Shown: piece after piece, positions 1 to 12,620 of the stretch
Numbering within the stretch: the first letter of the stretch is position 1
How the letters are laid out: the number at the start of each line of letters is the position of its first letter
Origin: Neoroseomonas oryzicola
Lineage (GTDB): Bacteria; Pseudomonadota; Alphaproteobacteria; Acetobacterales; Acetobacteraceae
Assembly: GCF_012163135.1 (NCBI RefSeq)
Contig: NZ_JAAVUP010000013.1
Location: 1 to 64,000, forward strand
Length of the DNA: 64,000 nucleotides
Reading direction: 5' to 3'
Made by a program: the position numbers and the translations under genes
Notes under the pieces: model-generated
What the model was told of the DNA's origin: nothing
The model's input: the letters and a program-made list of their open reading frames with translations, nothing else
Databases searched by the model: none

Positions 1-431
1 ACCACGCGGTGGCCGCAGGACTCGACCACGCGCCGGATGTCCATGGCGGTCACCGGTTCGTCCTCGATGACGATCACATCAGTCGCCGATACGGCACGGA
101 GGGCGGACCGTGCCACCTCGAGCTCGAACCCCGCCTCCTCGGCACCGATGCCGATCACCAGGGCGACCTCGGCCAGGCTCAGGTTCTCGAGTGCGGTGAG
201 GAGGAGCAGCTGCCTCTGACGCGCGGAGAGGTTCGTCGTGTCGCGCGGTGTCGGCGCGGCCCGCGTGACCGCGGCGTAGAGCGCCAGCTGGGGCGCCATG
301 TCCGGCAGGTCTGCGCCCAGCACCGCGGCGACGAGTGCGTCGCCCTCCGCCTGCGTCCCTGTCAGGGCGCGGGCGTAGCGCCGCGCGAAGGGCACGGCAT
401 GCATGAGGTCCCGCTGTCCTGAATTCTTCAC
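1..431 (-). CDS. phyR: PhyR-type general stress response regulator, partial (C-terminus off window)
   Basis: The visible 143 codons read as an EcfG-like sigma-factor domain (FARRYARALTGTQAEGDAL near the start, then LSARQRQLLLLTALENLSL as the region 4-like part) followed by the start of a receiver domain (VIVIEDEPVTAMDIRRVVE, with the acidic pair ED). This fusion order is diagnostic of PhyR, which when phosphorylated sequesters the anti-sigma factor NepR. The phosphoacceptor Asp lies beyond the window edge. I chose the GTG at 431 because GGAGG lies 7 nt upstream; an in-frame ATG at 404 is the alternative. It is divergent from the sigma genes and nepR of the same pathway. Confidence 0.9.
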   Translation of the reverse strand, partial: MKNSGQRDLMHAVPFARRYARALTGTQAEGDALVAAVLGADLPDMAPQLALYAAVTRAAPTPRDTTNLSARQRQLLLLTALENLSLAEVALVIGIGAEEAGFELEVARSALRAVSATDVIVIEDEPVTAMDIRRVVESCGHRV

Positions 432-481
432 TCTGTCGCCTCCGGTGAGTTCGCGCCTATGGTTGGTGACGCAGATCGAAT

Positions 482-988
482 GTGGCGCCACTTCGCATGC
501 CGCGCGTGCCGTCCGAGTTCCGCAAAGCCCTGGCCGCACTGCTGCCGCAGCTGCGCGCCTTCGCGCGTTTCCTGATCCGGGATCCGGCGCGTGCGGACGA
601 CCTCGTGCAGGACGCCATCCTGCGGGCCATGACGGAGGAGCAACGCTGGGAACCCGGCACGAATCTTCGCGCCTGGGTGTTCCGCATTCTCCGCAACGGC
701 TTCCTCATGCAGCTGCGCAGGGGCGGGGCGGAGCAGCGCGCACTGGAACGGTTCGACGCGCGCGCTTCCTCGGCACCGGCGCAACTGGCCACGGCTGAGC
801 TGCATGAACTCGACCGCGCTCTCGACGACCTGCCCATGGCGCAGAGGGAATCCCTCACGCTGGTCGCCGCCCTGGGCTTCTCGATCGAGGAAGCGGCCGC
901 GATCTGCGGTGTTCCGCCCGGCACGGTGAAGGCGCGCGTCTCCCGCGCCCGCGCGGTCCTCGCGCAGCGCTTCGCCGACAAGACGTGA
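482..988 (+). CDS. ecfG: EcfG-type (ECF15) RNA polymerase sigma factor, first copy
   Basis: A 168-residue two-domain ECF sigma factor. Region 2 is seen in DDLVQDAILRAM and NLRAWVFRILRN (about residues 38-72); region 4 is seen in LPMAQRESLTLVAALGFSIEEAAAICGVPPGTVKARVSRAR. The PGTNLRAW signature is typical of the EcfG group that drives the alphaproteobacterial general stress regulon. It lies divergent from phyR, 51 bp away, and upstream of a second EcfG gene and nepR. The GTG at 482 is used; ATG at 497 is possible because neither has a strong ribosome site. No clear GGAAC-N17-CGTT stress promoter was found in the short divergent gap. Confidence 0.88.
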   Translation: MAPLRMPRVPSEFRKALAALLPQLRAFARFLIRDPARADDLVQDAILRAMTEEQRWEPGTNLRAWVFRILRNGFLMQLRRGGAEQRALERFDARASSAPAQLATAELHELDRALDDLPMAQRESLTLVAALGFSIEEAAAICGVPPGTVKARVSRARAVLAQRFADKT

Positions 989-1052
989 TAGGTGAACGCG
1001 ATCGCGGATCAGGTGGATTTGCATCCAACGGTAATGCGCGAAGCCATCACAA

Positions 1053-1110
1053 GGTTGCATCGCCCGGTCACGCTTGTGCCCCGCGCCGGCGCGCAGGATC
1101 CGATGCAACC
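1053..1110. repeat. 10-bp inverted repeat between the two sigma genes
   Basis: GGTTGCATCG at 1053-1062 is matched by its exact complement CGATGCAACC at 1101-1110, with 38 nt between. Related TTGCATC words occur at 1019 and 1135. It lies in the probable leader of the second sigma gene. It could be a regulator site or an RNA stem; function unknown. Confidence 0.45.
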
Positions 1111-1138
1111 GTTTCGGGGGCTCGTGCATTGGACTTGC

Positions 1139-1786
1139 ATGCCCCTCGACACCCGTGCGCGCGCCCTGGCGCGGAGCCCCCCAACCCTCATCGCAGGAGA
1201 AGTCCGGCGATCCTTCGCCGATGATCTTGTGGCGTTACTGCCGCGCCTCAGGATTCAGGCCCTGGCCCTGACCCGCAACCATTCCGACGTCGACGATCTG
1301 GTGCAGGCGGCGGTCACCAGCGCCCTTGCCGCGAAGGCAAGCTTCACCCCCGGTACGAACTTCGGCGCCTGGATGTACCGCATCCTGCGCAACCGGTTCC
1401 TGTCCGATCGCCGTGGCACGCACGATACAGTAGGCCTGGACGACGCCACCGCGGATGCCCTGCAGCGGCCCGCGAGCCAGGAGCACGACATCGCGCTCGA
1501 GGAACTGCACGCGCATCTCGCCCGGCTGTCGCCGGACCAGCGCACCGCGCTGATCATGGTGTCGGTGCAGGGCCTCAGCTACCAGGACGTGGCCGATGCC
1601 ATGGGCTGTGCGGTCGGCACCGCGAAATGCCGTGTCTTTCGTGCGCGGCGGCAGCTCGAGCTGTGGCTGCTTGGCACGGACGGCGCACGGCGCAGCAAGC
1701 CTGCACCGGTTTCGGCTGGCGTCAGGCGCGGCACGACGGATAGTCTGCCGCAGGTCGCCAACGGCCCGCGTTCCGCCGCAGCGTAG
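1139..1786 (+). CDS. EcfG-type RNA polymerase sigma factor, second copy
   Basis: A second ECF15-like sigma factor directly downstream of the first. Region 2: DVDDLVQAAVTSAL, PGTNFGAWMYRILRNRFLSD. Region 4: LSPDQRTALIMVSVQGLSYQDVADAMGCAVGTAKCRVFRARRQL, followed by a basic/Ala-rich tail of about 35 residues that the first copy lacks. The frame is open back to a GTG at 992, but homology begins only near LVALLPRLR, so ATG 1139 is preferred; the true start is uncertain because AGGAG at 1195 has no start codon behind it in this frame. nepR follows 6 bp later, so this copy sits in the canonical position next to its anti-sigma factor. Confidence 0.85.
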   Translation: MPLDTRARALARSPPTLIAGEVRRSFADDLVALLPRLRIQALALTRNHSDVDDLVQAAVTSALAAKASFTPGTNFGAWMYRILRNRFLSDRRGTHDTVGLDDATADALQRPASQEHDIALEELHAHLARLSPDQRTALIMVSVQGLSYQDVADAMGCAVGTAKCRVFRARRQLELWLLGTDGARRSKPAPVSAGVRRGTTDSLPQVANGPRSAAA

Positions 1787-1792
1787 GACCTG

Positions 1793-1999
1793 ATGGACCA
1801 GAGCGAAGACCCGAATCAGGATGTCGCGGCGCGGATGCCGAACGCTGTGCTCCGTGGGCGAGCGTATCATCGCGCGATGCCGGACACGGCCTTCGATATC
1901 TGGCTGCGGCGCGGCCTTCGCACGATGTACGACGAGGTCGCGCGCGAGCCCATCCCGGACGATCTGCTCCGGCTGATCGAGGCGGATCGGGAGAAGTGA
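1793..1999 (+). CDS. nepR: NepR anti-sigma factor
   Basis: A 68-residue protein whose C-terminal half carries the NepR signature (FDIWLRRGLRTMYDEV, then EPIPDDLLRLIE). NepR binds EcfG in unstressed cells and is titrated by phosphorylated PhyR. The first 30 residues are not conserved, and later starts such as ATG 1877 would retain the whole core. It follows the second sigma gene by 6 bp and overlaps the kinase start by 4 nt (GTGA), implying one transcript. In most alphaproteobacteria nepR precedes ecfG; here it follows two ecfG copies. Confidence 0.9.
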   Translation: MDQSEDPNQDVAARMPNAVLRGRAYHRAMPDTAFDIWLRRGLRTMYDEVAREPIPDDLLRLIEADREK

Positions 2000-3720
2000 C
2001 GGCGGGTGGCGCCGCAAGGGCCGCCCGCTTGCCAGAGTTCCGACGTCTGATGACCGGCCTGCGCCGACGGCTCCTGCTCATCCTTCTCGTACCCTTCGTT
2101 GGGATCTACGGAGCGATCGCCTGGAGGGACTATGCGCGCGAAGTGGCCGCGGACCGGACGGCCGCCCTCGTGCTGCACCAGGCGACTGCCGCGCACGCCA
2201 GCGCCGAGATGGACGTCGTCGAGGAGATGCTGCTCGCCGTCGCAGGGCGCACGGAACTGTTGGCGATGACGCCAGAGGCCTGCGATGCGGCCCTGCGCGC
2301 GGCGCATGACCTGTTCGGACAGCGCTATGCGGATGTCTGGATCCTCGATGGCGACGGGCGGCTGCTCTGCAGCGCAGCGCCAGTTCAGCACGGGATCGAT
2401 CCTCACGATCTGCCGGTTCTTCGCGACGTCCAGGCCATCCGTCCGCACACCGTGAGCTGGTTCAGCATTGGGCTCCTATCCGGCCGTCCCGTGCTTCGGG
2501 CTGCCACGCCGGTCCTCGCGCCCGATGGCGGCCTGCGCGCGGTGGTCGGCGCCTCAGTCGTCCTGGACCAGGTCTTCAGGCCACAACACGCGGCATCGAT
2601 CACTGGCGCACAGCACAGCTGGCTGATCGACCGGACCGGCACCGCGGTGAGCGTGACCGGGGGGGCGGCGGCCGCCCTGCCGGACGTCGGCACCCTGGAA
2701 CGGATGCTCTATGGTGGGGTCCGGACAGCCGAGGGCAATGCGCGGTCGGGCGAGCCTTATGCCTCGACGGTCGCTGTCCTGCGTCCAGATTTGCTGCTGT
2801 TGGCCGGCGTGCCGATGGACGGTCTCCGCCCCGCGGCGCGCGCGGCACTGCGGGTCCGATGGATCGAACTCGGCGGCGTCATGATCGGTTGTCTGATCGT
2901 GGTGCTGATCGGACTCGAGATCGGCGTCGTCAGGCCGTTGTGTCGCCTCGCCGCGCGGGTCCGCGCCTGGTCGCCGGGACAACCGTTCGCGGCGACTGGC
3001 GACGGCCACAGATTGCCGGAGGTGAGGGAGATCGACACCGCCATGCTGGCGGCGAGCGATGCGATCATCGCCAGGGAAGCGGCACTGCGGGATGCACGGT
3101 GGCAGCATGACCTTGCGATGGAGGCCGTGAACCATCGGGTTCACAACAACCTCCAGATCGTCGCCTCGCTGTTAAGCATGCAGGCCAATGGCCGTGTTCA
3201 GCCGGAGGTGCGGACGGAACTCATCGTCGTGCGGGACAGGGTGCGGGCGCTTGCGGCGCTCTATCGGCACCTGTCCCGGGCTTTGGATCCGAGGGGCATC
3301 ACGCTCGGCCCGTACATCGAGGAGTTGTGCCGGCAACTCGCGCCGATCGTCTGCGTCGCGTCGAACGCTGATGTGGCGACGGCGATCGAGATCGACGACA
3401 TGGACCTGAGGGCCGATCAGACCGGTTCGCTCGTCCTTCTGATCACCGAGGCCGTGACCAATGCCCTGCAGCACGCGTTTCCTGCGGGGAGGCCCGGGAC
3501 GATCACGGTCTCCCTGAAGCAGCAGCGCGAAGGCGCGCAGCTTGTTGTTGCCGACAACGGCGTGGGTCTGCCGAAGGAAATGGAGTGTCGAAAGTCTCTC
3601 GGGCTGAAGCTTATCCGGGCTTTCGCAGAGGACCTCGGCGGCGCCGCCCAAATCTCTAGCGATCATGGTACGCTGATCAGCGTGCGGTTCGCAGTCAATC
3701 ATAGTCCGGCCCGAAGGTAG
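1996..3720 (+). CDS. Membrane sensor histidine kinase, HisKA_2 family (PhyK-like)
   Basis: A 574-residue kinase. A first membrane segment (about residues 24-42) and a second (about 290-312) enclose a roughly 245-residue periplasmic sensor region. After a linker comes the HisKA_2 box EAVNHRVHNNLQIVASLL with phosphoacceptor His near residue 380. The ATPase domain follows with N box EAVTNALQHAF and G1 box ADNGVGLP. Its place in the PhyR-EcfG-NepR locus suggests that it phosphorylates PhyR, as HisKA_2/HWE kinases such as PhyK do. GTG 1996 overlaps the nepR stop; ATG 2050 is an alternative start just before the first membrane helix. Confidence 0.88.
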   Translation: MTAGGAARAARLPEFRRLMTGLRRRLLLILLVPFVGIYGAIAWRDYAREVAADRTAALVLHQATAAHASAEMDVVEEMLLAVAGRTELLAMTPEACDAALRAAHDLFGQRYADVWILDGDGRLLCSAAPVQHGIDPHDLPVLRDVQAIRPHTVSWFSIGLLSGRPVLRAATPVLAPDGGLRAVVGASVVLDQVFRPQHAASITGAQHSWLIDRTGTAVSVTGGAAAALPDVGTLERMLYGGVRTAEGNARSGEPYASTVAVLRPDLLLLAGVPMDGLRPAARAALRVRWIELGGVMIGCLIVVLIGLEIGVVRPLCRLAARVRAWSPGQPFAATGDGHRLPEVREIDTAMLAASDAIIAREAALRDARWQHDLAMEAVNHRVHNNLQIVASLLSMQANGRVQPEVRTELIVVRDRVRALAALYRHLSRALDPRGITLGPYIEELCRQLAPIVCVASNADVATAIEIDDMDLRADQTGSLVLLITEAVTNALQHAFPAGRPGTITVSLKQQREGAQLVVADNGVGLPKEMECRKSLGLKLIRAFAEDLGGAAQISSDHGTLISVRFAVNHSPARR

Positions 3721-3861
3721 GCCTTCCTCACGGAATGGGGCTCCGGCAGCATGACGTGGCTGCCGTTCGAAGTGATAGGGGCGCTAGCCGGCAGCGTATT
3801 GAACCAACGCTTGGAAACTAGTCCGGCGATGAACTGTAGGGCAGGACTGCCGGTGAAGAGG
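3721..3861. other. Gene-free junction sequence before IS remnant
   Basis: About 140 bp between the kinase stop and the first recognisable transposase fragment. The minus frame gives an open peptide without recognisable motifs. It probably belongs to a decayed mobile element; I see no gene in it. Confidence 0.4.
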
Positions 3862-4031
3862 CAGATCGCGCGAGACGAACTCCGTGCCCTGGTCGACCCG
3901 GATCGTCTTCGGATAGCCCAGCGCCGCGCAGGCTTGCTCCAGCGCCGCCACGACATTCTCGGCCCGATAGCTGACCGAGGATCGATCACTGGCGAGCAGC
4001 GGGAGCAGGTGTCCACCGCCGTCATGACCCT
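3862..4031 (-). pseudogene. Degenerate internal fragment of IS3-family transposase OrfB
   Basis: About 170 bp match the middle of the adjacent intact OrfB (4443-4615) at high identity: both read VVAALEQACA and GYPKTIRVDQGTEFVSRDL on the minus strand. The similarity stops abruptly on both sides (after SRDL and before VDT), and the reading frame shifts within the fragment, since the SPVID part is in another frame than the DQGTEF part. It is therefore a dead internal remnant of a second, closely related IS copy and not a gene. Confidence 0.8.
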
Positions 4032-4077
4032 GCCCCCCCTGGATGTCCCCGCCCTGAGCTAGAGTCCGTCGAAGGGA

Positions 4078-4179
4078 TGCTCCGAGCCCCAACGTTGGAG
4101 CGCCCGATGGTGGAGTTTTCGGGCCTTGTGCTCCGAGCCCCATCGTTGGAGCGCCCCATGGTGGAGTTTTCGGGCCTTG
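4078..4179. repeat. Two tandem 51-bp copies of an IS end
   Basis: Units 4078-4128 and 4129-4179 differ at only a few positions. Each begins TGCTCCGAGCCCC and ends GGAGTTTTCGGGCCTTG. The opening resembles the complement of the other IS end (TGATCCGAGCCC at 5365 reading leftwards), so each unit looks like an IS terminus. The duplication may mark insertion of one IS against the end of an older one. Confidence 0.75.
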
Positions 4180-4180
4180 A

Positions 4181-5026
4181 TCACGGTGACGGGCTGGTGA
4201 TGCCACCGGGATTTTGCAACGAAATGGGCGGCTTCTGCCCGATCGCCCCATGCGGGCGATCCTCGTTGTAGTACTTGCGCCAAGCCTCCGACTTTTCCTG
4301 CGCATCGGCAAGCGTCAGGAACCAGTGCGCGTTCAGGCATTCCGCCCGGACGCGCCCGTTGAACGCTTCCGCGAAGGCATTGTCCGTCGGCTTGCCGGGT
4401 CGCGAGAAGTCGAGCGTCACCCCCTTCGCGTACGCCCACAGGTCCAGATCGCGCGAGACGAACTCCGTGCCCTGGTCGACCCGGATCGTCTTCGGATAGC
4501 CCAGCACGGCGCAGGCCTGCTCCAGCGCCGCCACGACATCCTCGGCCCGATAGCTGAACCGCGGATCGATCACCGGCGAGTAGCGCGAGAACGTGTCGAC
4601 CACCGTAAGCACCCGGATCTTCCGCCCCGTCGCGAGCTGGTCGTGGATGAAGTCCATCGCCCAGGTCTCGTTCGCCTGGCTCGCTGCCCGGCGATCGTCG
4701 CGCAGCTTCGCCCTGACCCTTCGCTTGGGCGTCTTGTTCCGCAGTTGCAGGCCGAGTTCCCGGTAGATCCGGCATGTCCGCTTATAGTTCACGCGCCATC
4801 CCTCCCGCCGCAGCAGCACATGCACGCGCCGATAGCCGTAGCGCACGCGCGTCGCGCAGATCTCCCTGATGCGCCCTTCGAGGCCGGCCTGGTCGGGTCG
4901 ACGTGAGCGGTAGTGGTGGGTCGACGTGTCCACCTCCAGAACCCGGCACGCGCGCCGGATCGACACGTCCCACTCCCGCCGCACCGCGTCGACAAGTTGG
5001 CGCTTGCGACCAGGCCTCAGATTTTT
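4181..5026 (-). CDS. IS3-family transposase OrfB (DDE integrase domain, made by frameshift)
   Basis: The frame carries an HTH-like start region (RRACRVLEVDTSTHHYR), then the rve integrase core: TWAMDFIHDQ, VVDTFSRYSPVID, IRVDQGTEFVSRDL, and FNGRVRAECLN with YYNEDRPHGAI. These give the D-D-E triad of the IS3 family. The domain appears full length. OrfB is expected to be expressed as an OrfAB fusion by a -1 shift at the A5 run (5022-5026 on this strand), just upstream of the orfA stop; the frame remains open upstream inside orfA to 5164. No internal stop is seen, so the element could be active. Confidence 0.85.
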   Translation of the reverse strand, partial: KNLRPGRKRQLVDAVRREWDVSIRRACRVLEVDTSTHHYRSRRPDQAGLEGRIREICATRVRYGYRRVHVLLRREGWRVNYKRTCRIYRELGLQLRNKTPKRRVRAKLRDDRRAASQANETWAMDFIHDQLATGRKIRVLTVVDTFSRYSPVIDPRFSYRAEDVVAALEQACAVLGYPKTIRVDQGTEFVSRDLDLWAYAKGVTLDFSRPGKPTDNAFAEAFNGRVRAECLNAHWFLTLADAQEKSEAWRKYYNEDRPHGAIGQKPPISLQNPGGITSPSP

Positions 5027-5283
5027 CGGCGGATGACGTCTTGCAGCATCTCGCGATCCAGCGACAGGTCCGCCACCAGCTTCCGCAACTTGCCGTTCTC
5101 GTCTTCCAGCTGCTTCAGCCGCCGCATCTCCGGCGGCGTCATCCCGTCGTACTTCTTCTTCCAATTGAAGTAGGTCGCCTGGCTGATACCCGCCTTGCGG
5201 CAGATCTCCGCCACCGGCATTCCCGCCGCACCCTGCTTCAGGATGAACGCCTTCTGGGCATCACTGAACTTCGAGGCCTTCAT
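5017..5283 (-). CDS. IS3-family transposase OrfA (HTH_Tnp_1)
   Basis: An 88-residue helix-turn-helix protein (FSDAQKAFILKQGAAGMPV, ICRKAGISQATYFNWKKKY) followed by a leucine-zipper-like stretch (LKQLEDENGKLRKLVADLSL), the standard IS407-type OrfA layout. It binds the IS ends and, fused to OrfB by -1 frameshifting in the A5 run before its TGA, makes the transposase. The ATG at 5283 is the family start. Confidence 0.88.
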   Translation of the reverse strand: MKASKFSDAQKAFILKQGAAGMPVAEICRKAGISQATYFNWKKKYDGMTPPEMRRLKQLEDENGKLRKLVADLSLDREMLQDVIRRKI

Positions 5284-5365
5284 CGGCTCCGCTCCTCCCA
5301 GCCCAGGGAAAACCCGGCACCGAAAACTCTACCTCCAACCGATCCAGTTTTCCGGGCTCGGATCA

Positions 5366-5908
5366 ACCGGCTACCGCGATCGCATCGTCCACATTGCGCA
5401 GAGGCCGGGCGAGGGCGGCCTGAGCCTCGGCATGGACAGCGCCACCATCCTGAAGCTCTCGGCGCGCGGCGCCGCGGCCGCTCAGCTCCTAGTGGACAGG
5501 TTCCATCCCAGGGGTCCGGCGGCGCGCCTTGTCGATTTCCCGATGGACTGGGACAATCATCCGTGGGTCCGCTACCGCACGCTGATGGCTGCTGTTGAGC
5601 GGCTGCTGTCCGGGATCCTACGCGGGGCGGGCGATCTGCCAGAGAGCCTGTCGAGCTATCGGTGGCCCTCCGAGGCCGCGGCAGAACGCGCCGCAAAGGC
5701 ACATTCGGCTCTGATGGAACTGGCAGAGGCATTCGAGAAGGCCGCTCATGCGCAGGCATCCGCCACCGGCGATGCCCCAAGCCTGTTCGACCGCCTGACG
5801 CCCAATGGGGCGCGTTCTCCCCATGGCGGGAACAGCCCCCGCCCGAAGATGGGCCTGACCCTGCAGCCTATCGGGCGGGACCCGGCGCGCAGCCTGCCCT
5901 ATCCGTGA
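5366..5908 (+). pseudogene. C-terminal fragment of a patatin-like phospholipase, truncated by the IS
   Basis: The frame starting exactly at the IS boundary reads GYRDRIVHIAQRPGEGG, then SARGAAAAQLLVDRF and DNHPWVRYRTLMAAVE. This pattern is known from the C-terminal part of bacterial patatin-family proteins. The catalytic GXSXG and DGG parts are absent, so about 180 residues of the C-terminus remain with no start of their own. The IS insertion at 5365 probably removed or separated the N-terminal part, which is not found elsewhere in the window. Confidence 0.65.
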
Positions 5909-6057
5909 CTCGCTCTTGCGATGTGGCAGGACGTCACGCGACACCTGAGCTGACTCTGGGGGGGCGGCGCTCCGGCGCCATCACGCCAGGCGCGATGGCC
6001 CTGAACCCGGAAACTGATCCGCTGGGAGGCCAGACTTTTCGGGCACTTTGACCGAAG

Positions 6058-6159
6058 ATGGACGGCGCCAAGAAGACGTTCCGCTTCACGGAGGAGCAGG
6101 TCCCGTTCGCGCTACTGCAGGCTCACACAACGTCGGCGCGTCGCCCGTCGCTAGGATAG
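6058..6159 (+). pseudogene. Remnant of another IS3-type OrfA
   Basis: A 33-codon frame begins MDGAKKTFRFTEEQVPFALL, which matches the N-terminus of IS3-family OrfA proteins (K-RFTEEQI-ALR pattern), and then loses similarity and stops. About 40 bp upstream, TGATCCGC followed by ACTTTTCGGGC at 6014-6042 resembles an IS terminus. The surrounding 5909-6213 holds no other gene that I can support. Confidence 0.55.
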
Positions 6160-6213
6160 AGCCGCTCGTAACGTCATCAGCGGCAGCCACACATCGCTAA
6201 TCCCAGGGTGGCG

Positions 6214-6861
6214 CTACGGAAAACGCACCGCGATGACCTTCGCCAGTTGAACATCCTTGGCGGGAAATTTCCGCGGCTTGTCCTCCGCATCGCGGATCGC
6301 GACGACGCTATCGGCCGACACGAGCGTCCCGAGTGCCACGACACGCCGCTCCGCCAACGCCAACGCGGTGTCGCCCACACGCGGCGGCTGCAACATGTGG
6401 ACGTAAGCCAGGTCGCCAGGCTGCAGGCGACCGCGGGTGCCGGTGATCCACAGGGCAATGTAGATCCCGCCATAGGCCGTGGATTTCAGGCCCGTGGTCC
6501 ACTCCGCGGCCTGGGCCGGATCAATCACACCATCGTCGCGGAACACGGGCACGTCGCGCAGTTCCCCGCCGCTCCTCGCCCCGCCACCGGGCGCCTCGGT
6601 GTCGCCGACGATGCTGGCGAGGCTCGGCTCGCCCGGCGGACTCAGCGAATCCACCGGCATGTCCAGCGCCTTGGCCACTTGGATGCGGACCGCCAAGGGG
6701 AGTGACTTCGGCGCGCCCTTCCAGATGAACTGGTGGACGTAGCTCAGGTTCTTTCCGGCTGCCCGACTCAGATCCGCCAAGGTCACGCCCTTCGCGCGGG
6801 CCCGCTCGACCAGCCTGCGGCGAACCGGATCCAGGTCATCCTCTGACGTCACCTTGGCCAT
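6214..6861 (-). CDS. CI-like phage/element repressor (HTH_XRE plus S24-like C-terminal domain)
   Basis: A 215-residue protein. Residues about 15-70 form an XRE helix-turn-helix (ARAKGVTLADLSRAAGKNLS then YVHQFIWKG). The C-terminal half (GIYIALWITGTRGRLQPGDL, AYVHMLQPPRVGDTALAL) looks like the S24/LexA fold of phage repressors, but I cannot identify a convincing catalytic Ser/Lys pair, so SOS self-cleavage is doubtful. ATG 6861 is chosen at the start of the conserved region although the frame is open to 7005. It is divergent from the excisionase and recombinase genes, with two operator-like palindromes between, and presumably represses them and itself. Confidence 0.8.
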   Translation of the reverse strand: MAKVTSEDDLDPVRRRLVERARAKGVTLADLSRAAGKNLSYVHQFIWKGAPKSLPLAVRIQVAKALDMPVDSLSPPGEPSLASIVGDTEAPGGGARSGGELRDVPVFRDDGVIDPAQAAEWTTGLKSTAYGGIYIALWITGTRGRLQPGDLAYVHMLQPPRVGDTALALAERRVVALGTLVSADSVVAIRDAEDKPRKFPAKDVQLAKVIAVRFP

Positions 6862-6887
6862 TTCGTTGGGTTCCAGCTGCCAGTTGT

Positions 6888-6901
6888 TAGGAAATTTCCT
6901 A
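6888..6901. promoter_or_regulatory. Operator-like palindrome O1 for the CI-like repressor
   Basis: TAGGAAATTTCCTA is a perfect 14-bp palindrome 27 bp upstream of the repressor start. Its 12-bp core AGGAAATTTCCT recurs with one change at 6950-6961. The position between divergent genes and the repetition suggest a repressor operator; this is inference. Confidence 0.55.
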
Positions 6902-6949
6902 GTTAATTTCGCGCATGTATGCAAGTGAGTTTGCGCGCTAGGTGAAAAG

Positions 6950-6961
6950 AGGATATTTCCT
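6950..6961. promoter_or_regulatory. Operator-like palindrome O2
   Basis: AGGATATTTCCT matches the O1 core at 11 of 12 positions, 61 bp away centre to centre (about six helical turns), next to the start of the rightward small ORF. It is well placed to control the excisionase-recombinase direction. Confidence 0.5.
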
Positions 6962-6968
6962 CGCTTGC

Positions 6969-7184
6969 ATGGTATTGAGCCAAGGGCGCTTAGCGCCGTC
7001 CGCACCGCCGCCCGCCGACCCTCCGAGCGAGACCGCCGGCGATCGGGGCGATCGCTGCGTGTCAGACGCCCCTTCCAGCACGCTTCTCCTGGGCCTCGTC
7101 CGTGCCATCGCGCGGCAGGCGGCCGCGGATGCGTGGGTCAATGCCATGGCACTGCAACCCGAAGGATCGGAGATCCCAGCGTGA
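6969..7184 (+). CDS. Small hypothetical protein upstream of the excisionase-like gene
   Basis: About 71 residues with a Pro/Ser-rich first half and a helical second half (LLLGLVRAIARQAAADAWVN). I do not recognise a family. An in-frame GTG at 6942 would place operator O2 inside the gene, so ATG 6969 is used; a later start is possible. Its stop overlaps the GTG of the next gene (GTGA), which argues that it is translated and coupled to it. Confidence 0.45.
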   Translation: MVLSQGRLAPSAPPPADPPSETAGDRGDRCVSDAPSSTLLLGLVRAIARQAAADAWVNAMALQPEGSEIPA

Positions 7185-7381
7185 TCGATTCCTATACCAA
7201 TCCCAGCTGCGCCAGCGGGCGCCTCCTCTCCATCGGGAAGGTCGCAGAGTTGCTCGACCTCTCGATCAAGACGGTCCGCCGCATGATCAAGCGCGGGGAA
7301 CTGCGCGTGCATCGCATCGGCCGCCAGATCCGGATCGCCGAGGACGATTTCACGGTGTTCCTCCGCCATCGCCGCCAGTAG
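7181..7381 (+). CDS. Excisionase-family HTH protein (HTH_17/MerR-like)
   Basis: A 66-residue protein almost entirely made of an excisionase-type winged helix: LLSIGKVAELLDLSIKTVRR, then MIKRGELRVHRIGRQIRIAE. Such proteins bind near attachment sites and set recombination direction, or act as small regulators. GTG 7181 overlaps the preceding stop. It lies before the recombinase operon, separated by a 160-bp AT-richer stretch with inverted repeats, fitting a directionality factor for this element. Confidence 0.78.
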   Translation: MIDSYTNPSCASGRLLSIGKVAELLDLSIKTVRRMIKRGELRVHRIGRQIRIAEDDFTVFLRHRRQ

Positions 7382-7451
7382 CGCCGAGGCCTCCGCAATT
7401 CGGATCGCATGTCCGCCAAAGTCCAATTAATTCCTGAGTACTAATCCGTAT

Positions 7452-7524
7452 CGTGACTGCGTCTTTCGCGAATTAAGGAACATTATACAGCAAACGCAGT
7501 CACGTTTTGGCGGTATGTACCGCC
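7452..7524. repeat. Inverted repeats upstream of the recombinase operon (candidate recombination or control site)
   Basis: CGTGACTGCGT at 7452-7462 and its exact complement ACGCAGTCACG at 7494-7504 flank 31 bp of AT-richer DNA. Six bp on, GGCGGTATGTACCGCC at 7509-7524 is a perfect palindrome. The 7382-7544 interval is otherwise gene-free. The layout resembles arm or core sites of site-specific recombinases or an operator cluster. Function is inferred from position only. Confidence 0.55.
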
Positions 7525-7544
7525 TTGTCCATGGGAGTCATTCT

Positions 7545-9272
7545 GTGAACATGTCTGTATCCTTGCATAAGGCCGCCTCGGCGGCCACGGTTCCTTCGAT
7601 GGCTGACGTTCGGCAGCGCATCCTGGCGGACGAGGCGGTGCCGCCCGGCCGTCGTCGCGACATGGCCTCGGCCCTGATGTCGCTGGCCAAGGCAGTGGGC
7701 CGACCGGCGGAAGTGCTGCCCGCGGATCCCCAGGTGCTGCGCCCGCTGCTCGCGGGGCTGACCCCCGCCATGGTCGGGCAGAAGCCCGGCCGCTGGCGCA
7801 ACATTCTGTCCCTGTCGAGCACCGCGCTCGCGCATGCCGGGATCGTCGCCATCCAGGGCCGCATCCGAGAGGAACCCTCGCCCGCCTGGGTCGCGATCCT
7901 CGACCTGCTGGCAGACGGTCAGCACCGGCACTTCAATCTCTGGCGGCTGGCGCGCTACGCCACCCAGCAGGGGATCGAGCCGGACGCGGTCGACGACGCC
8001 ATGATCGAGCGCTACCGCCTCGATCTCGCGACGCGCAGCCTGGTGTCGGAGCCGGATCGCGCGGCGCGCGATGCGGCGCGCTACTGGAACATGGCGGTGG
8101 AGGCGTGCCCCGAATGGCCGCAGCAGCGCCTGTCCATCCCCGACAACCGCGATACCTACTCGCTGCCGTGGGATCGCTATCCGGACAGCCTGCTCCAGGA
8201 GGTGGAGGCGTGGGCGGCCAAGCTCTCCGATACCAGCCCGTTCGGGGATCGCGGCCTCAAACCGTTGCGGCTGACCTCGGTCAGCACGCGCCGATGCCAA
8301 CTGCGCCTGTATCTGGGCGCCTTGGTGCAGAAGGGCATCGAGCCGAGCGCGATGGTGAACCTGGCCACGGTCGTCGCCCCCGCCATGGCGGCTCGTGGCT
8401 TACGCTACATTTGGGAGCGTGCCGGCGAGAAGTATTCCCACCACCTCTTTCAGATGGCCGGCATGGTGCAGATGATCGCGCGGCACTGGTGCAAGCTGCC
8501 GACGTCGGACGTTGACCAACTGGCGGAGATGGTGAAGCAGTGCCGTCCGGAGCGCGCCGGCATGTCCCTGCGCACCAAGGAGCGGGTGCGCGCGGTGGCG
8601 GAGAACCCCGAGCGTCTGCGGCAGCTCCTCCTGCTCCCCACCACCCTGATCGACGAGGCACGGGCGATGCCGCCGTGCGAGCAGACGGCGCAGCAGGTGC
8701 AGACCGCCATCGCCCTCGAAATCCTGCTGTTCGCGCCGATTCGGCTCCGCAACCTCCAGAATCTCCGGCTGGGCGTGCACTTGCTGCCGAGGCAGGCGAA
8801 GGGGTTCGACATCTCGATCCCCGCGTCGGAGACGAAGAACGGGGATCCCTACGATGCGGTGCTGCCGCCGGAGGTCGCGCGGCACATCACGCTCTACCTG
8901 GAACGCTACCGTGCATTCCTGATGCCTGCGCCCAGCGACTGGCTGTTCCCGGGCCAGGTGCTGGGCAAGGCCAAGACGGACGACGGCCTGCGCAGCCAGA
9001 TCCGCAAGGCGATCGCGATCCGCTGCGGCCTCGTACTGACGCCGCACTGCTTTCGCGCGCTGGCCGGGTGGATGGTGCTGAAGAAGAATCCCGGTGCGCA
9101 CGGGCTGGTGCAACGCCTCCTCGGGCACAAGTCGACCACCACGACGATGGCGTACTACACGGGCCTCGAGCAGGTGCTCGCGGTCCAGCACTATGACGAG
9201 ATGCTGCGGGAGGAGCGCGAGAAGGCCGCAGCGTCGTTCGATCGCGCCGGCCGCCGCCGGAAGGCGCGCTGA
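7545..9272 (+). CDS. Tyrosine recombinase/phage-type integrase, first of pair
   Basis: About 575 residues, longer than a typical integrase owing to a roughly 390-residue N-terminal region of unknown fold. The catalytic set is complete: Arg400 (FAPIRLRNLQNL), His501-x-x-Arg504 (PHCFRALAG), His528 (LLGHKSTTTT) and nucleophile Tyr537 or Tyr538 (MAYYTG). GTG 7545 is preferred because GGGAG lies 9-10 nt upstream; ATG 7515, inside the palindrome, and ATG 7551 are alternatives. It overlaps the next recombinase by one base (TGATG), implying coupled translation. Confidence 0.85.
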   Translation: MNMSVSLHKAASAATVPSMADVRQRILADEAVPPGRRRDMASALMSLAKAVGRPAEVLPADPQVLRPLLAGLTPAMVGQKPGRWRNILSLSSTALAHAGIVAIQGRIREEPSPAWVAILDLLADGQHRHFNLWRLARYATQQGIEPDAVDDAMIERYRLDLATRSLVSEPDRAARDAARYWNMAVEACPEWPQQRLSIPDNRDTYSLPWDRYPDSLLQEVEAWAAKLSDTSPFGDRGLKPLRLTSVSTRRCQLRLYLGALVQKGIEPSAMVNLATVVAPAMAARGLRYIWERAGEKYSHHLFQMAGMVQMIARHWCKLPTSDVDQLAEMVKQCRPERAGMSLRTKERVRAVAENPERLRQLLLLPTTLIDEARAMPPCEQTAQQVQTAIALEILLFAPIRLRNLQNLRLGVHLLPRQAKGFDISIPASETKNGDPYDAVLPPEVARHITLYLERYRAFLMPAPSDWLFPGQVLGKAKTDDGLRSQIRKAIAIRCGLVLTPHCFRALAGWMVLKKNPGAHGLVQRLLGHKSTTTTMAYYTGLEQVLAVQHYDEMLREEREKAAASFDRAGRRRKAR

Positions 9273-10414
9273 TGACCGGCACCGCAATTCGACCCCACGC
9301 CGCATTGCCGGTCGCGGCCTGGCCCGCGGCGGACCAAGCCGCCTGGCAAGCCGCGCACCGGCAGGGCGACTTCCTGGTCAAGGCCGGTCACGCCACGACG
9401 TGGCGTGCCGCCAGCCAGCGCTCCGCCGCGGGCGCCTACGGACGCTGGCTGGGCTGGCTCCAGTCCCGGGATGTCGCTCTATCGAACGAAGCTCCGTCAG
9501 ACCGGTTCACCGAAGAACGCACGCGGGCCTATGTCGCGTTCCTGCAGCACGGGCGCTCCCCGGTCACCGTGGCGAGCTACCTGGGCCTGTTGTGCATGAC
9601 CGTCGTCGCGCTGTTCCCCGACCGGGACTGGGCCTGGCTGCGCGGGACGCAGGCCCGTCTGGCCCGCCGGGCAAAGCCGGTGCGCGACAAGCGCTCTCGC
9701 TTGGTGCCGGTCGGCGGCTTGGAGCAGCTCGGCCTCGATCTCCTGGAGCGGAGCGGATCGGAGCTCGACAAGCCCCGCACCGGCGAAGCCGACCGGCGCC
9801 GTGTGCTGGCGGCCGCGCGGGACTATCGGGACGGACTCATGATCGCGCTGCTCGCATCGCGCGCGCCGCGGCTGAAGAACCTCCTCGGCATCGAGATCGG
9901 CGTTCAACTGCGGGACACCGCCGGCCTGGCGACGCTGCACTTCGCGGCGTCGGAGATGAAGGACAAGAAGGCCAGGACCATGAGCTGGCCGCGCAATCTG
10001 CTGGCAGGGCTGGAACGTTACCTGACGGTCGTGCGGCCGATGCTCATCGCGGCGACGGCCCCGATCGACCCGAAGCGCCCGGCACGGCCGGCCGGCGCCA
10101 TGCTCTGGGTCGCCCAGGGCGGTACGCCGTTGACCGCAGGTGGCCTGCAGAAGGCACTGCGTCGTCACACCGCCCCCCGGTTCGGCCACGCGATCAACGC
10201 CCATCTGTTTCGCGATTGCGCCGCGACGACCTACGCGAACGAAAGGCCCGCCCATATCCGCGGCGCGAGTGCCCTGCTCGGCCACAGCCGCGCGAGCACG
10301 ACGGCCCGCAACTACATTGCCGTCGATACGCGTCCCGCGGTGGCGCAGCACCAGGAAGTCATGCTCGCCTTGCAGCGGGCTGCACGTCGGCGCCGGCGGA
10401 CCGAAAAGGAGTAG
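9272..10414 (+). CDS. Tyrosine recombinase, second of pair
   Basis: A 380-residue recombinase with an N-terminal SAM-like core-binding region (SAAGAYGRWLGWLQ, VTVASYLGLL) and a complete catalytic domain: Arg200 (SRAPRLKNL), His311-x-x-Arg314 (AHLFRDCAATTY), His338 (LLGHSRASTT) and Tyr348 (ARNYIA). It is clearly different in sequence and length from the first recombinase, so it is not a recent duplicate. It is translationally coupled to the upstream gene and followed 5 bp later by a serine recombinase. Confidence 0.87.
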   Translation: MTGTAIRPHAALPVAAWPAADQAAWQAAHRQGDFLVKAGHATTWRAASQRSAAGAYGRWLGWLQSRDVALSNEAPSDRFTEERTRAYVAFLQHGRSPVTVASYLGLLCMTVVALFPDRDWAWLRGTQARLARRAKPVRDKRSRLVPVGGLEQLGLDLLERSGSELDKPRTGEADRRRVLAAARDYRDGLMIALLASRAPRLKNLLGIEIGVQLRDTAGLATLHFAASEMKDKKARTMSWPRNLLAGLERYLTVVRPMLIAATAPIDPKRPARPAGAMLWVAQGGTPLTAGGLQKALRRHTAPRFGHAINAHLFRDCAATTYANERPAHIRGASALLGHSRASTTARNYIAVDTRPAVAQHQEVMLALQRAARRRRRTEKE

Positions 10415-10419
10415 GGGAC

Positions 10420-12309
10420 ATGGCTCGCTGCGTCATCTACGCCCGCTATTCCTCGGACAACCAGCGCGAAGCGTCCATCGAGGATCAGCTGCGCATCTGC
10501 AACGTGCGCGCCGAGCGTGAGGGCTGGTCGGTGACGGCCACCTACACGGATGCGGCGATCTCGGGCGCGACGACGCAGCGGCCGGGCTATCAGGCGATGC
10601 TGGAGGTCCTGCGGAAGGGTCAGGCCGACATCGTCCTGGCGGAGAGCCTGGATCGGTTCTCCCGCGACCTCGAGCACGTCGCCGCGTTCCACAAGCTGTC
10701 GATCTTTGCCGGCGTGAAGATCGTCACCCTCGCCGAGGGCGAGATCTCTGAACTGCATGTCGGACTCAAGGGCACCATGGGGGCGCTGTACCTCAAGGAC
10801 CTGGCGCAGAAGACCCACCGAGGTCTGGAGGGCCGTGCCCGTCAGGGGTTCGGGACCGGGCGGTTGGCCTATGGCTATCGGGCAATCCGTCAGTTCGGCC
10901 CGGACGGCGAGCCGGTGCGGGGGTTGCGCGAGGTCGATGAGGCCTGCGCCGTCGTCGTGCGGCGGATCTTTCGCGACTATGTCGGCGGCGCCAGCCCGCT
11001 GGCGATCGCCCGGGCGCTGAACGCCGAGGGCGTTCCGGGCCCCGATGGCCGGCCCTGGCATGACTGGACGATCCGTGGCCGGCCGGGGCGGGAGAACGGC
11101 CTGCTGCGCAATCCGCTCTATGTCGGCCTCCAGGTCTGGAACCGCACCACCCGCCGGCGTGATCCCGTTCGCGGTGGCTGGGTAAGGCGCGCCCATGCCA
11201 AGGAGGCCATGGTCGAGACGCCGGTGCCGGCCTTGCGGATCATCGATGATGAGCTGTGGCAGCAGGCCCAGCGGCGGCTGGCCGCCGAGGCGTCACCCGC
11301 CGATCAGAACCGCGGCAATACCTTCTGGGACCGGCGACGGCCAAAGCACCTGCTGAGCGGCAAGGTATTCTGCGGCTGCTGTGGGAGGGCGTTCTCGGCG
11401 GTCGGGCAGGACTATCTGGCCTGTCTGGCGGCCCGCAACCGGCAGGGCTGTCCCAACCGACGGACGGTCCGGCGGTCAACGCTCGAGGCGCGGGTCCTGG
11501 ACGCGCTCGGCCGGCGTCTCATGCGGCCTGATCTGGTCGAGGCGTTCTGCAAGGCATTCATCGCGGAATGGAACCGCCTGTCGGCGGAAGCCTCATCGGG
11601 GGCCGAAATGCGCCGGCGGGAACTCCAGGCCGTCGAACGCAAGATTGAGAACCTGGTCGAGGCGATCTCCGACGGCCTCAAGGCCGCCGGTGTGCAGAAG
11701 AAGCTGTCGGATCTGGAAGCGCGTCGGGACGAGTTGGCGGCAGCGCTCTCGACGGGGCCGGCGTCTCCGCCCGCCCTACTGCCGAACCTCGCGCAGGTCT
11801 ACGCCGCGAAGGTCGCCCAGCTGCAGTCAGGCCTGGAGGCCGGCAAGGGCCAGGAGGTACTGGAGGCCGCGCGGGCGCTGATCGACAAAATCATCATCAC
11901 CCCCGGCGCCGGGCCGGACGACCCTCCTGGAATCGAGCTGATCGGGCACCTCATGGCCATGCTTCAGGCGGGCGGGGCCTTTGCATACGGAGCTGATGAG
12001 ACCAGTCGCGGACTCATCAACGCCGTATCCAGCGGTTCGGCAAAGGGGGCTATGAGGGGGCGGCGCCCCTCCGCCGTCACGCAATGCGTAGCGCCATCCG
12101 CCGTTCCGCCACGCGCCGCCCCCATTGCTCCGCCGCGACCTCCTCGGTCACGCGGAACCCCGCCTGTTCATACAGATGCGTCGCCGCATCGAGCCCCGCG
12201 AGGGTCCAGAGGTAGACCTCCGGCACGCCCAGGCGACGCGCCTGGTCCACCGCCTCCGCAAGCCATCGCCGCCCCAGCCCCTGCCCGCGCAGCGCGGGGT
12301 CGAGGATGA
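10420..12309 (+). CDS. Large serine recombinase (resolvase plus recombinase plus zinc ribbon)
   Basis: The N-terminal resolvase domain has the catalytic Ser (IYARYSSDNQREASIEDQ, Ser11) and SLDRFSRD. The Recombinase domain follows (GRLAYGYRAI, VVRRIFRDYVGG, GLLRNPLYVG), then a zinc ribbon (CGCCGRAFSAV with later Cys) and a coiled coil (RRRELQAVERKIENLVEAI). GGGG precedes ATG 10420. Homology fades near residue 525 (about 11990), yet the frame runs on to 12309 across the hairpin and antisense to the GNAT gene. The last 100 or so residues are thus probably junction read-through. It forms an operon with the two tyrosine recombinases. Confidence 0.87.
   Translation: MARCVIYARYSSDNQREASIEDQLRICNVRAEREGWSVTATYTDAAISGATTQRPGYQAMLEVLRKGQADIVLAESLDRFSRDLEHVAAFHKLSIFAGVKIVTLAEGEISELHVGLKGTMGALYLKDLAQKTHRGLEGRARQGFGTGRLAYGYRAIRQFGPDGEPVRGLREVDEACAVVVRRIFRDYVGGASPLAIARALNAEGVPGPDGRPWHDWTIRGRPGRENGLLRNPLYVGLQVWNRTTRRRDPVRGGWVRRAHAKEAMVETPVPALRIIDDELWQQAQRRLAAEASPADQNRGNTFWDRRRPKHLLSGKVFCGCCGRAFSAVGQDYLACLAARNRQGCPNRRTVRRSTLEARVLDALGRRLMRPDLVEAFCKAFIAEWNRLSAEASSGAEMRRRELQAVERKIENLVEAISDGLKAAGVQKKLSDLEARRDELAAALSTGPASPPALLPNLAQVYAAKVAQLQSGLEAGKGQEVLEAARALIDKIIITPGAGPDDPPGIELIGHLMAMLQAGGAFAYGADETSRGLINAVSSGSAKGAMRGRRPSAVTQCVAPSAVPPRAAPIAPPRPPRSRGTPPVHTDASPHRAPRGSRGRPPARPGDAPGPPPPQAIAAPAPARAARGRG
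12054..12071. terminator. GC-rich hairpin at the GNAT 3' end (type 1 stem of the dispersed repeat)
   Basis: GAGGGGGCGGCGCCCCTC forms a near-perfect stem a few bases past the GNAT stop codon (minus strand). It is the same stem type as at 28807, 39065 and 62113, so it is chromosomal sequence and marks the right limit of the island. A terminator role is likely although a U-tract is absent. Confidence 0.5.
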
Positions 12310-12562
12310 ACCAGCGCAGATGCGCCGAGCCCGGGTCCTCCCCGCAATCCAGCGCGATCGACCCGAGCACGCGGCTGTCGGCCGCGCAGCGGAACAGGTC
12401 GCGCGCCGGATCGAAGCGCAGCAGGAAATCGCCGAGCTCGCGGGCCACCTTGGCCTCGAAATACGCCCCGAAGCCGTGGCTCACGGCGTAGGTGCGGGCA
12501 TGGAGCGCGGCGATGTCCCCGATCGCGCCGGGGATCCAGGCGCTGTGCAGCGTGATGTCCAT
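12077..12562 (-). CDS. GNAT-family N-acetyltransferase
   Basis: About 161 residues. The acetyl-CoA binding motif A is visible as LRWFILDPALRGQGLGRRWL (R/Q-x-x-G-x-G/A), followed by AVDQARRLGVPEVYLWT and LYEQAGFRVTEE, the usual GNAT order. The substrate cannot be told. ATG 12562 is preferred over ATG 12571 because AGGA lies 8 nt before it. It diverges from the phosphatase gene. Its 3' half is overlapped antisense by the run-on end of the serine recombinase frame, presumably because the island inserted just downstream. Confidence 0.85.
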   Translation of the reverse strand: MDITLHSAWIPGAIGDIAALHARTYAVSHGFGAYFEAKVARELGDFLLRFDPARDLFRCAADSRVLGSIALDCGEDPGSAHLRWFILDPALRGQGLGRRWLAEAVDQARRLGVPEVYLWTLAGLDAATHLYEQAGFRVTEEVAAEQWGRRVAERRMALRIA

Positions 12563-12620
12563 GGCTGCCATCCTGGCACGGGCCTCGTCAGCCCGCGCGG
12601 GGTGCGGTAGAGCGCCCGGC

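Follow-up and report, generated by a model that had tools for sequence, protein, structure and literature searches.

The window analysed here is a stretch of 64,000 nucleotides of Neoroseomonas oryzicola DNA and corresponds to contig C5 of the source genome from base 1. Near its left end lie two genes for tyrosine recombinases (TR1 and TR2), followed by one for a large serine recombinase (SR). The features of the locus are as follows.

1..6216, no strand: probable rest of the island on the window contig (empty-site ends, Pfam).
992-1786, plus strand: ECF sigma-like ORF (Pfam), inside the putative island.
1996-3720, plus strand: histidine kinase ORF (Pfam), inside the putative island.
~3784-5283, minus strand: IS3-type transposase remnants (Pfam), inside the putative island.
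~6217..6861, minus strand: divergent putative regulator, no family match.
7181..7381, plus strand: HTH_17 / excisionase-like small protein (Pfam HTH_17 1.1e-13, TIGR01764 excise 1.9e-12).
7452..7504, no strand: 53-bp inverted repeat CGTGACTGCGT-(31)-ACGCAGTCACG, putative candidate site for TR1/TR2.
7515..9272, plus strand: TR1, 585-aa tyrosine recombinase with a long N-terminal region (Pfam Phage_integrase, catalytic residues).
9272..10414, plus strand: TR2, 380-aa tyrosine recombinase (Pfam Phage_integrase, catalytic residues).
10420..12056, plus strand: SR, large serine recombinase (Pfam; right end by empty-site comparison).
12035..12056, plus strand: right terminal arm GTTCGGCAAAGGGGGCTATGAG, attP half-site, which matches the left arm.
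12057..12072, no strand: remainder of the host palindrome, GGGGCGGCGCCCCTCC, right part of the target; G104 homology starts here.
12077..12571, minus strand: host GNAT-like ORF (named by eye), outside the island.

The original prediction, made from the sequence alone, had described three recombinase genes in this order, with a 1-bp overlap between TR1 and TR2 and a 5-bp gap between TR2 and SR, behind an excisionase-like gene. Coordinates and Pfam domains agree with the order and spacing, and the HTH_17 and TIGR01764 matches at 7181-7381 agree with the excisionase-like gene. SR has the Resolvase, Recombinase and Zn_ribbon domains (Pfam) and the catalytic serine of a large serine recombinase. 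Catalytic residues were counted as residues aligned to those of the window proteins. In TR1, R, K, R and Y are each kept in 72 of 72 sequences, and the two H in 70 and 69 of 72. In TR2, R, K and R are kept in 71 of 71 each, Y and H in 69 of 71 each, and the last H in just 46 of 71. The SR serine is kept in all 42 aligned sequences. 

Two points need correction. The divergent gene at ~6217-6861 had been called a CI-like repressor and the cassette CI-regulated; neither Pfam (E≤0.1) nor PHROG (E≤0.001) gave a match for the gene, so that its CI-like nature is unconfirmed, and it is not conserved: of the 84 other sequences searched, just L086 and L091 contain a homolog. The cassette and SR had been ended at 12053. 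The SR frame has no stop before 12309; it passes the right end of the island (~12056) into host DNA, where it is antisense to the host GNAT-like ORF.

An empty site in the congener G104 shows the boundaries of the island. Alignment of empty and occupied sites, which the original prediction had proposed as a check, defined both ends (C17:5444 and window ~12056). The DNA right of the cassette, from 12057, is 93% identical in G104 and is preceded there by chromosome without the cassette. The homolog of the G104 left flank in the source genome is C17:2991-5441 (94%). The G104 left flank joins C17 at 5443/5444, and the right junction lies at window position 12057. The empty site reads CCGGAGG-GGCGGCGCCCCTCC, the left junction on C17 CCGGAGG-CTCATACCC... 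and the right junction in the window ...CTATGAG-GGGGCGGCGCCCCTCC. Since both junctions were mapped, the island consists of C17:5444-21271 and C5:1-12056, at least 27.9 kb. The C17-C5 join does not lie within one contig; we infer that nothing lies between them, and a further unseen stretch is possible. No left island end was found on searching inside the window. Judged from sequence comparison, the three recombinase genes are the right end of a mobile DNA island.

Ten ORFs of the island were analysed with Pfam. They include a P-type cation ATPase, a Na+/H+ antiporter, an HlyD-type protein, an ABC ATPase, the ECF sigma factor, the histidine kinase and transposases; one ORF had no match. We take the adjacent ECF sigma factor and HisKA_2-type histidine kinase (992-3720) to resemble general stress response genes.

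The ends of the island form a 22-bp imperfect inverted repeat. The left arm CTCATACCCAACTACACCGAAC (C17:5444-5465) agrees with the reverse complement of 12035-12056 at 16 of 22 positions, the sole placement with so high a score among 127,956 in the window. In the putative attP (46 bp), the 22-bp dyad arms flank a G-run, whose exact core is probably GG; the putative attB is GGAGGGGCGGCGCCCCTCC. At the crossover the window's element shares just ~4-5 bp. The ends resemble half-sites of a serine enzyme with a short core between them, and ends defined against an empty site, a short core and dyad-symmetric attP arms are what is expected of a serine-integrase island. The hairpin after SR was considered as part of the element and rejected, as it is host DNA according to the G104 empty site. 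The window contains 5 occurrences of the host palindrome GGAGGGGCNNNGCCCCTCC at ≤2 mismatches, cassette junction included, against 0.17 expected, and the repeat around it accounts for most of 54 match rows in the source genome. An intergenic G-rich repeat with nested palindromes, which contains the target palindrome, is scattered over window positions 24954-62242 and the genome.

Left arms directly after GGAGGG were also found in two other elements, C23 of the source genome (~17.9 kb) and G104:C26 (~28.7 kb). The G104:C26 arm matches at 17/22, the best in its scan; the C23 arm matches at 15/22, tied with two other places, and was picked by its GGAGGG prefix. On the right flank of C23, homology to a second G104 site begins at the same kind of hairpin, and its left flank has no homology at that site beyond a short repeat. 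The arm scan did not find the left end of the C32 element.

The source genome holds five copies of the cassette including that in the window, one of them decayed. C14, C16 and C32 carry all three genes and C23 a TR1 fragment. Identities to the window of 30-42% for TR1 and 46-61% for SR indicate that these copies are old divergences. A 46-bp match between C14 and C16 was rejected as an element feature because by eye it is an IS-like end.

Recurrence was assessed with whole-genome searches, the contig pattern scan yielding 3 loci only. The TR1 profile (E≤1e-15) matches 74 of 397 genomes of the bacterial family and 15 of 385 of the class, own genome included; the SR family is present in 108 of the 397 family genomes. 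We examined 75 TR1 loci: 60 hand-picked family matches, 10 from the class (14 other class genomes had TR1 matches, and 10 of them supplied one locus each) and 5 own. They comprise 35 trios with SR after TR2, 29 pairs without SR (with 2 kb or more of DNA downstream, and no SR of the family within 2 kb), 10 loci too short to classify and 1 without TR2. L085, L111 and L112, whose SR matches are weak or unrelated, were counted as pair only, and the TR2 profile includes one wrongly framed seed row (C23, 5 X). Gene order and orientation are constant across the 35 trios. In profile coordinates, SR starts at most 143 bp from TR2 in 32 of them and 964-1490 bp from it in 3. Six of the 10 class loci are trios. 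The ordered set thus recurs in other genomes, the original prediction having proposed such a search as a check. The original prediction had also weighed that SR might normally occur without the tyrosine pair and that the adjacency might be unique to this strain. The former is true: 28 of the 150 SR places listed have TR1 within 3 kb upstream and one more within 8 kb (150 listed SR rows compared with 104 TR1 rows, which come from 72 of the 74 matched genomes). The latter is false, with trios in other genomes of the family and class. An HTH-type gene lies upstream of TR1 in 37 loci and was not found in 27 with >1.5 kb upstream, misses that are expected because the profile was built from two sequences. 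G088:C3, a contig of 183 kb, carries two copies of a 17.7-kb segment with a tyrosine pair (L083 and L092), 99.9% identical to each other.

The targets of the 35 trios were sorted by eye. Nineteen end at tRNA-fMet sequence (some cut short), 8 at a hairpin, 3 have the tRNA-end core with no tRNA, and 5 have no assigned target. At loci with a tRNA called by ARAGORN, the SR frame mostly terminates within tRNA-fMet, antisense to it; in L084, which has a broken SR, the profile match stops 25 bp before the tRNA. The end of the tRNA is repeated over 13-14 bp at a distance of 17.8-30.3 kb upstream in four of five long elements, and in the fifth (C16) the contig ends before such a copy could appear. Six tRNA-type junctions have 6-9 of 10 pairs in dyad. 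In G322a and G216, SR remnants lie just outside the upstream tRNA-end copy, a pattern that tandem insertions would leave. In genome G322, trio elements occupy both of the tRNA-fMet matches found (C1, 739485 and 3737484). Among 10 SR-only loci hand-picked from well-assembled genomes, 9 end at tRNA-fMet (ARAGORN) and the tenth, L219, has just part of the tRNA-end core. The SR-only locus L215 has the same end motif as the hairpin elements, yet sits at tRNA-fMet. At L085 (G240:C19:14500-24836), a distant serine recombinase lies ~1 kb beyond the tyrosine pair and ends near tRNA-Arg(cct), which may be a third type of target.

Quick trees show an association of target with SR. With target labels assigned by us (L219 labelled tRNA on its partial core), the trees of 24 elements need one target change for SR (0 of 500 shuffles as low), four for TR1 (39-42 of 500 as low, the label being somewhat clustered) and six for TR2 (500 of 500 as low). 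A tree of 42 SR, 36 of them labelled, also needs one change (0 of 500 as low). The test is not fully independent because the hairpin label overlaps the 3' end of the SR gene. In 29 trios the distance correlations are 0.88 for TR1-TR2, 0.35 for TR1-SR and 0.23 for TR2-SR. After removal of near-copies (28 loci), the Mantel values are 0.84, 0.20 (p 0.006) and 0.09 (p 0.10), respectively. TR1 and TR2 thus co-evolve, and SR barely tracks them, its weak correlation with TR1 being above zero. On the quick TR1 tree the trio label changes 16 times against a shuffled mean of 20.9 (12 of 500 as low), so that SR presence is clustered but modular. A mobile element that mixes both recombinase chemistries, as first proposed, is supported. 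That one chemistry integrates is also supported, with the serine enzyme as the probable integrase, by the target changes on the three trees and the half-site-like ends. A stable fusion of two elements is not supported, given the 16 changes and the weak TR-SR correlations.

Upstream of TR1, inverted repeats of 52-59 bp in total with arms of at least 8 were found 13 times against ~2.4 expected in 68 loci, in a length range chosen after the data were seen. Sixteen plasmid records match TR1, and ten were read. All ten stretches hold HTH, TR1 and TR2 by profile and nine lack SR after TR2; ParA or Rep genes are annotated in 6 of these nine. H7 (L204, plasmid p03 of Azospirillum sp. TSH58, an 837-kb replicon) has a split TR2 and, 3 bp after it, a broken unannotated SR in two frames (10692-12120), a decayed trio. 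No TR1 relatives were found in phage records. The plasmid context suggests a role of the tyrosine pair in replicon maintenance, perhaps as a multimer-resolution system, and the plasmid copies without SR fit such a resolution role. On several Roseomonas plasmids (L202, L238, L239, L241 and L242), DUF4214 and hypothetical genes follow HTH-TR1-TR2, as if HTH-TR1-TR2-DUF4214 were part of a shared backbone.

We consider it likely that the cassette belongs to an integrative island with SR as the integrase and HTH-TR1-TR2 as an exchangeable second recombination module. SR would carry out a predicted strand exchange between a host site and the dyad-symmetric attP where its own gene ends. SRs of the window clade use the dispersed G-rich palindrome, and the other relatives examined mostly the 3' end of tRNA-fMet. 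HTH-TR1-TR2, as a co-evolving module, has been joined repeatedly to SR islands, ahead of the SR gene. The inverted repeat ahead of TR1 would be the site on which TR1 and TR2 act, and their job would be to resolve multimers of the excised circle. More tentatively, the full scheme may be that an exchangeable serine integrase sets the target, a plasmid-type tyrosine pair processes or monomerises the excised circle via the 53-57 bp inverted repeat, and one SR branch switched from tRNA-fMet to dispersed terminator-like palindromes.

A purely serine view is opposed by the 13-14 bp shared at tRNA-fMet, which would also suit a tyrosine enzyme, as would a 7-bp inverted repeat around 6 bp at some attP-like junctions. 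Together with the intact pair and xis-like gene, and with the statement in the accessible part of PMC4383910 that tyrosine integrases usually target tRNA genes, this shared core favours a Tn554-like integration of the island by the tyrosine pair, with SR serving as resolvase or being an unrelated neighbour and the mark of an older insertion. We regard this as improbable: elements with SR alone occupy the same place in tRNA-fMet (9 of the 10 fetched), the target tracks SR more closely than either TR1 or TR2, bounded elements have the SR gene right at their end, and the window element has just its few shared bases at the crossover. The constant gene order, the closeness of SR to TR2 in 32 of 35 trios and the overlapping window genes, which suggest one transcript, would instead fit one machine of three recombinases, in which the serine integrase depends on the tyrosine enzymes for excision or directionality. 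This too is unlikely, as SR without nearby TR1 is commoner among the SR places listed, the pair lacks SR in 29 of 64 classifiable loci, and SR and TR histories are weakly linked. Chance adjacency or a decayed hybrid in the source strain could account for C23, which lacks most of TR1, and for broken genes at some loci (TR1 in L097; SR in L071, L084, L102 and L207). It is very hard to reconcile with the ordered set in own copies, other family genomes and six other class genomes, and with the kept catalytic residues.

At most of the loci checked the SR family uses tRNA-fMet; the targets of a sister branch are dispersed palindromes, and att sites were mapped. The palindrome switch, if true, gives many sites per genome. 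The repeated association with a tyrosine module raises the question of why an island with a presumably self-sufficient integrase carries a second recombination system. New att-integrase pairs may be useful tools.

In Tn554 the short gene comes first. Its third gene is TnpC, whereas here the third gene encodes a serine recombinase. According to the accessible text of PMC3414803, Tn554-like pairs resemble TR1/TR2 in that a long tyrosine recombinase lies next to a short one, on plasmids as well as on chromosomes. RIT elements, in the same text, share three tightly spaced recombinase genes with the cassette; all three are tyrosine recombinases, whereas the third protein here is a serine recombinase, so the cassette is not a RIT element. 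Against plasmid records (tblastn E≤1e-5), TR1/TR2 gave alphaproteobacterial matches only, with none in Actinobacteria or Novosphingobium and none in Cupriavidus plasmids; the collection may lack Tn554-like plasmids and RIT-bearing Cupriavidus plasmids.

The accessible parts of PMC4383910 and PMC3218068 describe tRNA genes as an unknown or rare target of serine integrases. Such integration is rare and already published; a trio of a tyrosine pair and a serine recombinase was not found described in the open PMC literature, subscription papers being outside the scope of the search. Paracoccus phage Pami6 has a serine integrase at tRNA-Met(CAT) (PMC6536676), and mycobacterial AICEs and phage RSM1 integrate by serine recombination at tRNA-Leu and tRNA-Ser, respectively (PMC3218068). 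Like SR, these enzymes use a tRNA gene, in one case tRNA-Met(CAT); the likeness noted is one of target, and the accessible parts of both sources mention no tyrosine pair or palindrome branch. The ssrA islands of Dehalococcoides carry the large serine recombinase DsiB (PMC3146451). As described in the accessible part of that source, the DsiB gene, like that of SR, lies at the island end with its frame running through the att site into an RNA gene, and direct repeats of the RNA 3' end and tandem islands occur as in SR islands. DsiB islands differ in their target, tmRNA rather than tRNA-fMet or palindromes, and in the partner named, a second serine recombinase, DsiA, rather than a tyrosine pair. 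DsiB is the closest working analogue found.
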